DNA from: an uncultured Armatimonadota bacterium
Lineage (GTDB): Bacteria; Armatimonadota; Fimbriimonadia; Fimbriimonadales; Fimbriimonadaceae
Length of the DNA stretch: 64,000 nucleotides
Assembly: GCA_903899015.1 (NCBI GenBank)
Contig: CAIUHP010000043.1
Span: 124,001 to 188,000, forward strand
Direction of reading: 5' to 3'
In this document: piece after piece, positions 10,309-14,061 of the stretch
Numbering within the stretch: position 1 is the first letter of the stretch
How the letters are laid out: each line of letters opens with the position of its first letter
Notes under the pieces: model-generated
What the model saw: the letters and a program-made list of their open reading frames with translations, nothing else
Told to the model about the DNA's origin: nothing
Databases searched by the model: none
Position numbers and translations under genes: made by a program

Positions 10309-12762
10309 TCATTTGTCACTCTCGTAATGAACCCATCTTGGCGCGAGCTTGAATTGGGTGAAAGTCAAAACCAGAATGATGCCGAAGATAAGCCATGCGA
10401 TCGCTGACGAATATCCCATCTTAAAGTAGGCAAATCCGTTGTTGAACAGGAGATAAACCGGCGTGAGCAACGAATCGTCGGGCCCAACGGGTCCATCGGA
10501 GGATGGCTTCATGATATAGATTCGGTCGAATTCCTGCATCGCACCTATGAATCCCATCACCGCGTTGAAGAAAATGATCGGACTCAGCTGCGGGAAAGTA
10601 ATCGACCAGAATGTCTGGCGAGGATTCGCTCCGTCAATACTGGCCGCTTCATAAAGCGTCGAAGAGATTCCTTTCAAGCCCGCGAGCCAGAGAATCATTC
10701 CGCTTCCGGCTGCCCACATACTCATGACAACGAGCGCATTTTTCGACCAATCAGCACTCTGAACCCAACCGGGAGGATTGAGACCAAGCAGTGGCGTGAC
10801 AATTTTCAACCAGGCAGCGTTTAGCAAGCCTTTGTTAGGATCTGGGGTGAGAACCCATGTCCAGAGCACAGCGCTCGCAACGCCAGGAACGATCGCTGGC
10901 ATGTAAAAGAAGGTTCGGTAGAACCGCATTCCTTTCGTTGCCTGATTTAGGAGAAGCGCAATTGCAAGGCCGACTGCAAGCGACATCGGCACAGTAAGGG
11001 CCGCAAGGAATACCGCGTTTCCAAGCCCTTTCGAAACGTTATTCCAGTCTGCACCGCCTAAGTCTTGATAGTTCTTAAAACCAACCCATCGCGCTTCATT
11101 CAATACGTCGTACTGAGTGAAACTAAAGAACAGGGACGCAACCATGGGCCCAATGACGAGAAGCAAAAATCCGATAAGCCATGGGGAAACAAAGAGGTAG
11201 GCCCACCAAGCTTCCGTTCTTTCCAGGTTCCCCATTCGATGGCGTAGGAAGAGAACGACGAGGGTTGCCAGGACTATAAAGCCGATTCCGAGTCCAACGT
11301 AGAGTGGAATGCTCAGGTTAATAATCGGATAGTTCGCTTTGTTGAAGTAGGCGTCTAGGTCCCGTTGAACTACGTTTTGAGCCGCAAGTAGCGCCTCTTT
11401 GGGGCTGAGCTTGTGATAACAAGCCGATTCCATCGCCTTAACGTGGTTATCCCAAAGGGTTTGTCCCACAAATGTTACGGGGCGAATTTTGCCATGGGGC
11501 ATTAAGTCAATGTGCTGCCTCAGGGCTGCGGCGAATTTCGGATCAGCCGGCTTAAAAGCCTTGAAAAGTGCTTCATTTGCCTCCATGCTGCCTTGCTGAC
11601 GGGGGATGAAGGCCCGTCCACGAAGCTGCTCCCACTTCTTTTGGGCGGTGTTTTCAATCATTCGCCCTTCGGTGCTCGTGGCGAATTTGATATATTCCCA
11701 GCCGTCTTGCATGTTGCGAGCGCCGCGTGGAACTGCGTAGCAAAAACCACCTACCCAAGTCACATAGGTTTCTTTTTCATTTGCGAATCGGCCTGTGTGG
11801 TTGTAGCGGTCATCGGGAATAGGAGGAGGAGCAACGCCGATTTCTAGCGCTGGGCCGTAGCGCGAAAGGGCATTCAGAATCCAGTCGCCGTCGATTTTCA
11901 TCGCGACTTTCCCTAGAACGAATGGATCGTTTTCATTCGACAGGAACCCGGATTCAAACTCTTTACACTTTTCGTATCCACCAATCTGGTCGTAGCCATC
12001 GACGATGAATTTGAGAGCCTGCTCAGCTTCAGGGGTATCCATCGTGCAGACTCGGCCCGAAATTCCGTCTCGATCCCCCATGAAGACCGCGTTGTTCTGA
12101 AACGCGTACATGTAAAGCCAGGCATTTCCAAAATTCGGAAGGAATCCAACACTCTTAAATTGACCGGTGTTTTTGTCAACTTCGGTCAGCACCTTGCCGT
12201 ACTTTAGGAGTTCAGACCAAGTTCGGGGTGCCCGATCGGGATCCAGTCCGGCTGCCCGGAGTAAATCTGCTTTCTCTCGGAAAATCGCCTTGTTATAGTA
12301 GAGAATTCGGTTATCGGCTCCCGTGGGGATGCCATAAACCTTGCCGCCGTAGGAAGCTTCTTTCCAAACTTCAGGATAATATTGTTCCTTGCGAGGACAC
12401 AACGGGTCTTTGCCTGAATCCCGAGCAATCAAATCGTCGAGAGGCTGAAAGGCTCCGCGGCTGGCCCAGTCAGAAACCGAAAAACGATCTTGAGCAATAA
12501 CGTCGGGTGCAACGTTGCCGACAATGCTTGTCATCAGCTTTTGCGGGTTCATCGTTCCCGCACCCATGCTTAGGACGCGCACATTGATATCGGGGTGACG
12601 TCGGGCGAACTTGCGAATAATCGCTTCCGTCCCTTTGGTCTCCGGTCCTAAGCTAACGCCCCAGACAACGAGGTCGCGTTTTTTTTGCGCCTGAGCTGCC
12701 GAAAAGGCAGGCAACAAGAACAATGCGCTAACGAGCGCGAGGGCAATACGTGGACTCTTCAT
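10309..12762 (-). CDS. Fusion of sugar-binding protein and MalF-type ABC permease
   Basis: The 817-residue product begins with a signal peptide (MKSPRIALALVSALFLLPAF, cleaved near AQAQ) and a family-1 extracellular solute-binding domain, residues ~28-475 (DLVVWGVSLGPETKGTEAII; GKVYGIPTGADNRILYYNKA; YVTWVGGFCYAVP). A helix (LYVGLGIGFIVLATLVVLFL) at ~490 then enters the membrane and a complete MalF-like permease follows (~515-817) with its EAA loop YEAASIDGANPRQTFWSITF. Binding protein and permease are normally separate chains; here the receptor is tethered to the channel, giving one receptor per transporter. It is the first gene of a two-gene operon with the MalG-like permease. The SBP half carries no lipobox, consistent with being held by the permease. 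Both domains look intact. Confidence 0.9.
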   Translation of the reverse strand: MKSPRIALALVSALFLLPAFSAAQAQKKRDLVVWGVSLGPETKGTEAIIRKFARRHPDINVRVLSMGAGTMNPQKLMTSIVGNVAPDVIAQDRFSVSDWASRGAFQPLDDLIARDSGKDPLCPRKEQYYPEVWKEASYGGKVYGIPTGADNRILYYNKAIFREKADLLRAAGLDPDRAPRTWSELLKYGKVLTEVDKNTGQFKSVGFLPNFGNAWLYMYAFQNNAVFMGDRDGISGRVCTMDTPEAEQALKFIVDGYDQIGGYEKCKEFESGFLSNENDPFVLGKVAMKIDGDWILNALSRYGPALEIGVAPPPIPDDRYNHTGRFANEKETYVTWVGGFCYAVPRGARNMQDGWEYIKFATSTEGRMIENTAQKKWEQLRGRAFIPRQQGSMEANEALFKAFKPADPKFAAALRQHIDLMPHGKIRPVTFVGQTLWDNHVKAMESACYHKLSPKEALLAAQNVVQRDLDAYFNKANYPIINLSIPLYVGLGIGFIVLATLVVLFLRHRMGNLERTEAWWAYLFVSPWLIGFLLLVIGPMVASLFFSFTQYDVLNEARWVGFKNYQDLGGADWNNVSKGLGNAVFLAALTVPMSLAVGLAIALLLNQATKGMRFYRTFFYMPAIVPGVASAVLWTWVLTPDPNKGLLNAAWLKIVTPLLGLNPPGWVQSADWSKNALVVMSMWAAGSGMILWLAGLKGISSTLYEAASIDGANPRQTFWSITFPQLSPIIFFNAVMGFIGAMQEFDRIYIMKPSSDGPVGPDDSLLTPVYLLFNNGFAYFKMGYSSAIAWLIFGIILVLTFTQFKLAPRWVHYESDK

Positions 12763-12935
12763 TGCGTCTTGAACATCCTACACTGTTTTCCAACAAATCT
12801 GAACCGTGGATACGTATTCATGAACTTTCAAGACTCCTCGAAGCTGGGAATTTAGTAGGAAAAAGCTAAGAATTTATTCAAACGGATGCTCATTCCGGTA
12901 ACGTCTTAATTGTGAAGCAATGGGGCTTCCCAATA

Positions 12936-13087
12936 CCAAGGCTTAATGACGGTAAACGTCAGCGGGGGACCCAATCCTGGGGTGAACTCCTTCATATATT
13001 GAAGGGGCGGATAGTTCTTGATCCGAATCCGACAGCTAACTTCGCAAGCCAAAAGCAAGGACCACTGAGCGGTCAGCAATCGCTTGG
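12936..13087 (+). ncRNA. Cyclic-di-AMP riboswitch (ydaO/yuaA type)
   Basis: The leader carries the signature blocks of the ydaO/yuaA element in order and at normal spacing: GGCTTAAT with a small hairpin (GACG/CGTC), GCGGGGGACCCA (12962-12973), GGGGTGAA (12979-12986), and the long 3' block from CCGAATCCG through CAGCTAAC, TTCG and AAGC (13023-13049). A short closing stem is possible between CCAAG (12936-12940) and CTTGG (13083-13087). This element binds c-di-AMP and usually represses expression when the ligand is bound. Its 3' closing strand ends only six bases before the GGAGG ribosome-binding site (13093-13097) of the 94-residue gene, so control of translation initiation is plausible. Exact boundaries and expression platform are inferred. 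Confidence 0.9.
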
Positions 13088-13104
13088 ATGGTGGAGGTTA
13101 TTGA

Positions 13105-13389
13105 ATGCTAACTGAATACGAAGTCCGGTGCCAAATGGAAATCATCCAGACTTCAAAAATGTCCCCGCACCTAAAGGCGCGTAAGCTCCTGAGGCTCAGT
13201 CGCTCCCTCGAGCGGCAGTCGAAGATTTTGAATCAAGCCAAACGTCAAATCGCGAAGACACCCGACCGAAATGCTGTATCCGGTTTAACCAGACTAATCA
13301 TGCGCACGCAACAACTTCTGTTCGAAGTGCGCGATGCGGCTTACGAAGCGCTTCAAAATGGATTCCGAACCCCATCACTTTCTGTGTGA
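13105..13389 (+). CDS. Small helical protein of unknown function under a c-di-AMP riboswitch
   Basis: The ATG is preceded by GGAGG seven bases upstream, a strong ribosome-binding site that fixes the start. The 94-residue product is basic, almost entirely helical by composition (MSPHLKARKLLRLSRSLERQ; LTRLIMRTQQLLFEVRDAAY) and has no signal peptide or membrane segment. I do not recognise a family. Its position directly behind a c-di-AMP riboswitch suggests involvement in osmotic, potassium or cell-wall homeostasis, the usual regulon of that element, but this is inference. A stable hairpin follows nine bases after the stop, so it seems to be a single-gene transcript. Confidence 0.75.
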   Translation: MLTEYEVRCQMEIIQTSKMSPHLKARKLLRLSRSLERQSKILNQAKRQIAKTPDRNAVSGLTRLIMRTQQLLFEVRDAAYEALQNGFRTPSLSV

Positions 13390-13397
13390 TGGAACAA

Positions 13398-13439
13398 GCC
13401 CCTCGTCTCACCAGTCTCCAACAAGTGAAGACGAGGGGC
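13398..13439 (+). terminator. Hairpin after the riboswitch-controlled gene
   Basis: GCCCCTCGTCT (13398-13408) pairs perfectly with AGACGAGGGGC (13429-13439) across a 20-base loop. No T-tract follows, so intrinsic termination is uncertain. Confidence 0.5.
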
Positions 13440-13648
13440 ACCGACATCCACTCAAGATCTTCCACCAACTAGGACTCCTGCGCTTTCGAGAACAAGGTTT
13501 TGAGCTTCAAAGTGCTGGTTACTGTATTTCATGCTAACTTTTGAACTACAAAGTTGGATCGGAGACTTGAGTTAGAAATCAAATCCTTCCGTCACAACGT
13601 CATAAACTCGATGATTTGGATCACAGACCGCACTTCAGTGCGCACTCT
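13440..13648. other. Intergenic stretch without recognisable gene
   Basis: No open frame here has a convincing start or composition. Only a small hairpin (CGCAC-TTCA-GTGCG near 13630-13643) is visible just before the promoter of the following gene. Confidence 0.4.
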
Positions 13649-13731: not shown

Positions 13732-14061
13732 ATGGCTGCTAGCACCAATTCGCAAGTTCAATCACATCGTGATTTTGCAGGTTCCTTTATCGGAATCATC
13801 GTCTTTTTAGGCGGTATTGGATTGCTTGTATTTGTCTTCAAGCTTGCCTTCGAGATGTTCACTGTCCCTGAGAAAACAGCACTTGGTATTGAGCATGGTA
13901 AGAAGCTAGATTTGCCAGCCGCAGGCTCATCCCTCACTACAATCATTCTCCGGATATTCCTTCTCTTGCTTATGGGTTTGGTGGGATCTTGGATTGCTAA
14001 TCGAGGGATTTCGCTTTACACCCATTCTCGTGGAATTAAAGTTAGAGTTGACGAAGCGTAG
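13732..14061 (+). CDS. Small membrane protein of unknown function
   Basis: The ATG follows a good ribosome-binding site (GGAGG, six bases upstream) and a near-consensus promoter. The 109-residue product has two hydrophobic segments, residues ~18-41 (FIGIIVFLGGIGLLVFVFKL) and ~70-90 (IILRIFLLLLMGLVGSWIA), with a ~28-residue soluble loop between them and a short basic tail. No family was recognised. It precedes, but is not obviously co-transcribed with, the gene ahead of secA. Confidence 0.75.
   Translation: MAASTNSQVQSHRDFAGSFIGIIVFLGGIGLLVFVFKLAFEMFTVPEKTALGIEHGKKLDLPAAGSSLTTIILRIFLLLLMGLVGSWIANRGISLYTHSRGIKVRVDEA

Follow-up and report, generated by a model that had tools for sequence, protein, structure and literature searches.

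The window analysed here, a 64,000-nucleotide stretch (G000:C43:124001-188000) of a 4.94-Mb assembly that is 99.9% complete (G000), carries a small gene preceded by a c-di-AMP riboswitch of the ydaO/yuaA class (Table 1). These are flanked on the opposite strand by an 817-codon frame (10309-12762) containing both solute-binding protein and ABC permease domains, that is, a fused binding protein-permease, and on the same strand by a frame (13732-14061) encoding a 109-residue small membrane protein, upstream of secA, with no Pfam family. The latter is conserved in L004, where it is also found before secA, in L177 and in L095, where no other clear ORF separates it from a preceding c-di-AMP riboswitch. 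The palindrome TGGATACGTATTCA, a probable LacI-type operator, is situated at 12807-12820, ~45 nt from where the divergent sugar-ABC gene begins; two adjacent copies of it are found at G000:C78:132211-132239. A role as operator for the small gene was considered and rejected, as the palindrome keeps a similar distance from the divergent ABC gene (32-45 nt in six loci, with or without a riboswitch), making it more likely to belong to the latter.

Table 1. Coordinates of the features associated with the riboswitch-preceded gene, numbered from the first base of the window.
Feature	Position	Strand	Evidence or remark
Conserved leader segment GTGAAGCAATGGGGCTTC, directly 5' of the aptamer	12912-12929	+	comparison with L004 and L005
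c-di-AMP (ydaO/yuaA) riboswitch aptamer	12930-13064	+	RF00379, 84.4 bits (cut-off 38)
Aptamer P1 stem	12940-12943/13047-13050	+	42 nt before GGAGG
Expression-platform hairpin, 13 bp with one bulge	13061-13092	+	RNAfold z -3.0
Shine-Dalgarno sequence GGAGG	13093-13097	+	7 nt before the ATG; from sequence
Gene for a 94-residue basic three-helix protein of an undescribed family	13105-13389	+	homologues, dN/dS, AlphaFold2 model, riboswitch linkage
Hairpin 3' of the stop codon, no U-tract	~13398-13439	+	RNAfold -29.6 kcal/mol for 13387-13449

A cmscan search of the entire window returned a single match above the gathering cut-off, to RF00379, which covers the full length of the model (positions 1-134, E 3.4e-18). 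By this covariance model the aptamer is bona fide, and the diagnostic ydaO/yuaA blocks that had been claimed for it in an earlier, sequence-only reading of this DNA are indeed present. It resembles the Bacillus thuringiensis kdp riboswitch (PMC6488665) in being a full-length aptamer with all conserved blocks and, in common with other ydaO/yuaA elements, is found 5' of a gene plausibly involved in c-di-AMP physiology, the ATG of which is on the same strand and 40 nt from the end of the aptamer. The adjoining leader segment is nearly identical in L004, and is retained in L005 despite the loss of the aptamer there. A single diadenylate cyclase domain (PF02457, 130 bits) is encoded in the genome, which also hosts a second copy of RF00379 (C81:45727, 90.4 bits); this copy is followed by a gap of ~315 nt without a convincing gene and then a sulfotransferase-like ORF (PF13469; L001:1501-3101). 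In many Fimbriimonadaceae, a c-di-AMP riboswitch is also found ~240-480 nt upstream of hisB (L180:2547-2897 on the reverse strand, L071, L072, L073, L094, L097, L108, L109, L113 and L135); at L180, the one such locus scanned, an intrinsic terminator (GGGGCTCTCCGAAAGGGGAGCCTC) with a T-run lies between the two, and hisA is found further downstream. To our knowledge, histidine biosynthesis is not among the usual targets of c-di-AMP riboswitches.

The expression-platform hairpin is separate from P1, and its last base immediately precedes the Shine-Dalgarno (SD) sequence. An equivalent SD-adjacent hairpin, built from differing sequences, was identified in 12 species; the arms pair with their own partners at a mean of -11.6 kcal/mol, compared with -5.9 kcal/mol when combined with the arms of other species, and this excess was equalled in 0 of 20,000 permutations (P < 5e-5), indicating covariation. 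In some members of a second family, f5, the hairpin pairs with the SD itself, as in L022. Since no terminator was found by a scan of the aptamer-to-gene interval on the strand of the gene, and since the SD-adjacent hairpin covaries, control of the gene at the level of translation is plausible. The same mode had been proposed from a closing stem said to lie six bases from the SD; the true spacing from P1 is far greater (Table 1), such that the proposal stands as plausible while the measurement behind it does not. Two other pairings were tested and discarded: a helix between the aptamer's 5' flank ('AACC') and the SD ('GGTT'), in which own pairs had no advantage over swapped pairs (P 0.61), and an outer stem joining the aptamer tail to the region after the SD (P 0.29).

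The kdp riboswitch of B. thuringiensis represses at high c-di-AMP through termination (PMC6488665), and the nlpC riboswitch of Corynebacterium glutamicum, which has no terminator, also represses at high c-di-AMP, probably through translation (PMC9960051). On the precedent of these two systems, the switch in the window would most likely be OFF at high c-di-AMP, with the protein made when the messenger is low. The locus differs from ydaO/yuaA systems such as kdp in that no intrinsic terminator was found and in that its target is a small helical protein, rather than a transporter or wall hydrolase. It is more akin to nlpC, likewise terminator-less and presumed to regulate its first gene at translation, although the target there is a wall peptidase and here a small protein behind an SD-abutting hairpin. 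The SD was slightly more open with the 3' strand of P1 held (mean 0.49 versus 0.39), an effect that is strong in only a few leaders, and this estimate of SD accessibility does not decide between ON and OFF.

The ORF begins with ATG, and a protein search detected homologues in 22 of 101 genomes, including that of the window (21 of the 100 others). Across 291 genomes of the phylum Armatimonadota, a 21-row profile found the family in 32, every one within the same order. Among the named records, Fimbriimonas sp., Fimbriimonadaceae and Armatimonadetes metagenome-assembled genomes predominate, which puts the window in that phylum; one record, SJ84, is named as an archaeon, and its locus groups with the same family (G030). 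A search of phages and viral contigs found no homologues. On account of this conservation and a dN/dS of ~0.08 in two close pairs (L011/L013, 0.028/0.352; L052/L053, 0.053/0.635), the ORF is, by sequence comparison, a real coding gene under purifying selection. The claim that the protein has no known family is upheld: when a match was defined as scoring above a curated cut-off or having E below 0.001, the window protein matched no family in Pfam, NCBIfam or PHROGs (best E 0.097, 0.015 and 0.2, respectively), and the sole match below 0.001 for the 21 members was an isolated one to Cas3f (best 1.4e-4, two members).

The description of the product as basic and helical is also correct. The window protein has a pI of 10.7, and most members of the family fall between 10 and 12; basicity is nevertheless not conserved throughout, since some members lean towards neutrality (L049, pI 7.0; L126, pI 8.0). 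Modelling with AlphaFold2 from the window protein plus eight homologues (mean pLDDT 89, pTM 0.76) predicts helices at residues 4-16, 21-49 and 55-87, arranged as a short helix followed by two long antiparallel helices. The sequence points to no biochemical activity, and the matches listed in structure searches with this model were generic helical bundles only, with neither Acb2 nor Tad1 among them; Foldseek gave nothing at E < 0.001, and the best match, T4 UvsY (Z 10.8), was set aside because helical bundles are trusted only at higher scores. Beyond the stop codon, the strong hairpin that had been said to close the gene is present, though it lacks a U-tract and was not among the results of the terminator scan, and it probably marks the 3' end of a transcript carrying this gene alone.

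Across genomes, the riboswitch and the gene occur together. RF00379 was found directly upstream, on the same strand, at 28 of 33 loci identified by protein similarity alone, these being all places returned by the profile search other than the second gene of a tandem pair in G031 and a partial match within a 692-codon frame of G002. Two weak protein matches (G013:C63, E 1e-6; G006:C4, E 8e-4) both turned out to be preceded by the riboswitch. Chance cannot explain this linkage, as element-bearing genomes of the order contain just 1-5 copies of RF00379. Neither of the outcomes named in advance as refuting, the absence of an RF00379 match or homologues never preceded by the element, was observed. 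The five exceptions (L005, L009, L012, L015 and L016, searched to E 0.01) indicate that the gene can persist without a riboswitch. Three of them, L005, L009 and L012, lack it although the locus itself is syntenic, with the same ABC transporter alongside; L005 is a window-type locus next to the divergent sugar-ABC gene, at which the aptamer has been lost and both the preceding leader and the gene have been kept. Such synteny, with the divergent transporter adjoining the gene in six genomes, would be expected if the linkage merely reflected descent from one ancestral locus, without functional meaning for the gene. This is highly improbable, given that the pair recurs in many other contexts and in f5, and that the genomes G013, G025 and G070 contain second copies with low protein identity. 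As the genes 3' of the pair vary from genome to genome, it is the riboswitch and the gene that form the conserved unit.

Inspection of the first genes behind some 80 further copies of RF00379 in the order revealed divergent relatives of the family (L067, L089, L099, L126 and L139), as well as tandem pairs of members within one operon (G031, G025:C26 and G013:C63). In about a dozen genomes from six genera, a divergent relative is found between the riboswitch and a gene for a protein of 104-121 residues resembling Acb2 and Tad1. For instance, in G042 the riboswitch is followed by a family member (E 3e-25) and, after ~24 nt, by the Acb2-like gene; weaker members occupy the same position in G029 (E 9e-8), G167 (E 1.5e-7) and G002 (E 7.5e-4), and in G036 the member (E 2e-5) is the second of two small genes. 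Within a single genus (g30), seven genomes have similar operons in which the small gene belongs to an MSFVSQ subfamily, the E values of which (9e-5 to 5e-3) are only suggestive of homology. Candidates of 119-142 residues that are first genes at L096 (G030), L104 (G021) and L134 (G012) were rejected, their homology not being supported by profiles; by eye, they share a GF.Y..P....W-like C-terminal tail with L050, L051 and L161. The first gene at L070 (G026) likewise gave no profile signal as a relative.

The operon partner is, from profile comparison, homologous to the C-terminal region of Tad1 (PDB 8kbb, E 2.3e-10; 7uav, E 1.6e-7; single sequence, 5e-5), and a single sequence also matches phrog_2428 (E 1.1e-18). 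Sequestration of cyclic nucleotides is the role, in phages, of both the Thoeris anti-defence protein Tad1 and Acb2; the latter binds 3',3'-cAA, and T4 Acb2 binds 2',3'-c-di-AMP with a Kd of ~62 nM (PMC12043709, PMC12657218). By contrast, the Armatimonadota Acb2-like genes are widespread in a bacterial order, with some linked to c-di-AMP riboswitches; because they are chromosomal and occur in 68 of 113 genomes from the order, the product is apparently a host protein and not a phage sponge only. They are no commoner in family-positive genomes (~20 of 31), and hence appear to be a linked but not obligate partner. The genome of the window has a copy, L176:1016-1363 (C111), with no Pfam match and unlinked to the window gene.

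The small protein could itself be an Acb2-like sponge or receptor that binds c-di-AMP, forming a direct feedback loop with the riboswitch. It is basic, its 94 residues and helix order (one short, two long and antiparallel) are as described for Acb2 (PMC12043709), and in G030 and G057 an Acb2-like gene takes the place of the small gene immediately behind the riboswitch. Nevertheless, the window protein shows no sequence relation to Acb2 or Tad1: an hhalign comparison of the extended family with the Acb2-like family gave no signal (probability 0.2, 13 columns), and the window-family profile A1 matched no Acb2 or Tad1 in the PDB. With Acb2 also missing from the structure matches listed, and three-helix bundles being generic, such an identity is unlikely.

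The locus is instead probably, albeit with some reserve, part of a lineage-specific module for c-di-AMP response or homeostasis, in which a riboswitch controls a basic three-helix protein. It would represent a one-gene c-di-AMP regulon unit, the ydaO-class element acting most likely at translation initiation, and its product belongs to an undescribed superfamily whose small helical members, in Fimbriimonas-related Armatimonadota, are usually encoded by the first gene behind such a riboswitch. The protein probably partners with or modulates a c-di-AMP-binding protein, which would be the Acb2/Tad1-like protein where this is present; on a change in the messenger, the cell would thereby adjust free c-di-AMP or its output. 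The operons shared with the Acb2/Tad1-like gene strengthen the tie to cyclic-dinucleotide signalling and, together with the riboswitch linkage, make a dedicated small effector under c-di-AMP control, as first suggested from the window sequence, the best-supported reading.

A stress effector with no part in c-di-AMP homeostasis, such as a basic protein binding RNA, ribosomes or membrane proteins, the synthesis of which the riboswitch times to the potassium or osmotic state, is less probable yet a serious contender. Genes for potassium, amino-acid transport, wall and osmotic functions are among the known ydaO targets (PMC7266159), most members of the family are strongly basic, the gene usually stands alone with unrelated genes downstream, and family-positive genomes are not enriched for the Acb2-like gene. 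The several divergent relatives in operons with that gene point rather to nucleotide signalling, and, given the near-neutral members, basicity is not a conserved trait. A more specific form of the favoured c-di-AMP module, offered tentatively as a rather doubtful extension, is that these riboswitches control both the small helical proteins and chromosomal Acb2/Tad1-type proteins, with the sponge fold serving as a host c-di-AMP buffer or receptor and the window protein partnering or modulating it.

Work on c-di-AMP signalling has mostly concerned Firmicutes and Actinobacteria, and the riboswitch targets known so far are for the most part transporters and wall enzymes. A literature search that covered few subscription journals turned up no report of c-di-AMP riboswitches in Armatimonadota. 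The riboswitch class is an established one; what appears to be new is the protein family under its control and the tie of that family to Acb2/Tad1-like genes. Here a known RNA sensor points to a family of small, unannotated proteins in a different phylum, and the operons lead on to a fold that is known from phage sponges for immune messengers and of which the host carries its own copies. If these host Acb2/Tad1-like proteins bind c-di-AMP, they would constitute a testable new branch of the c-di-AMP network, and would suggest a possible origin of the phage sponges.
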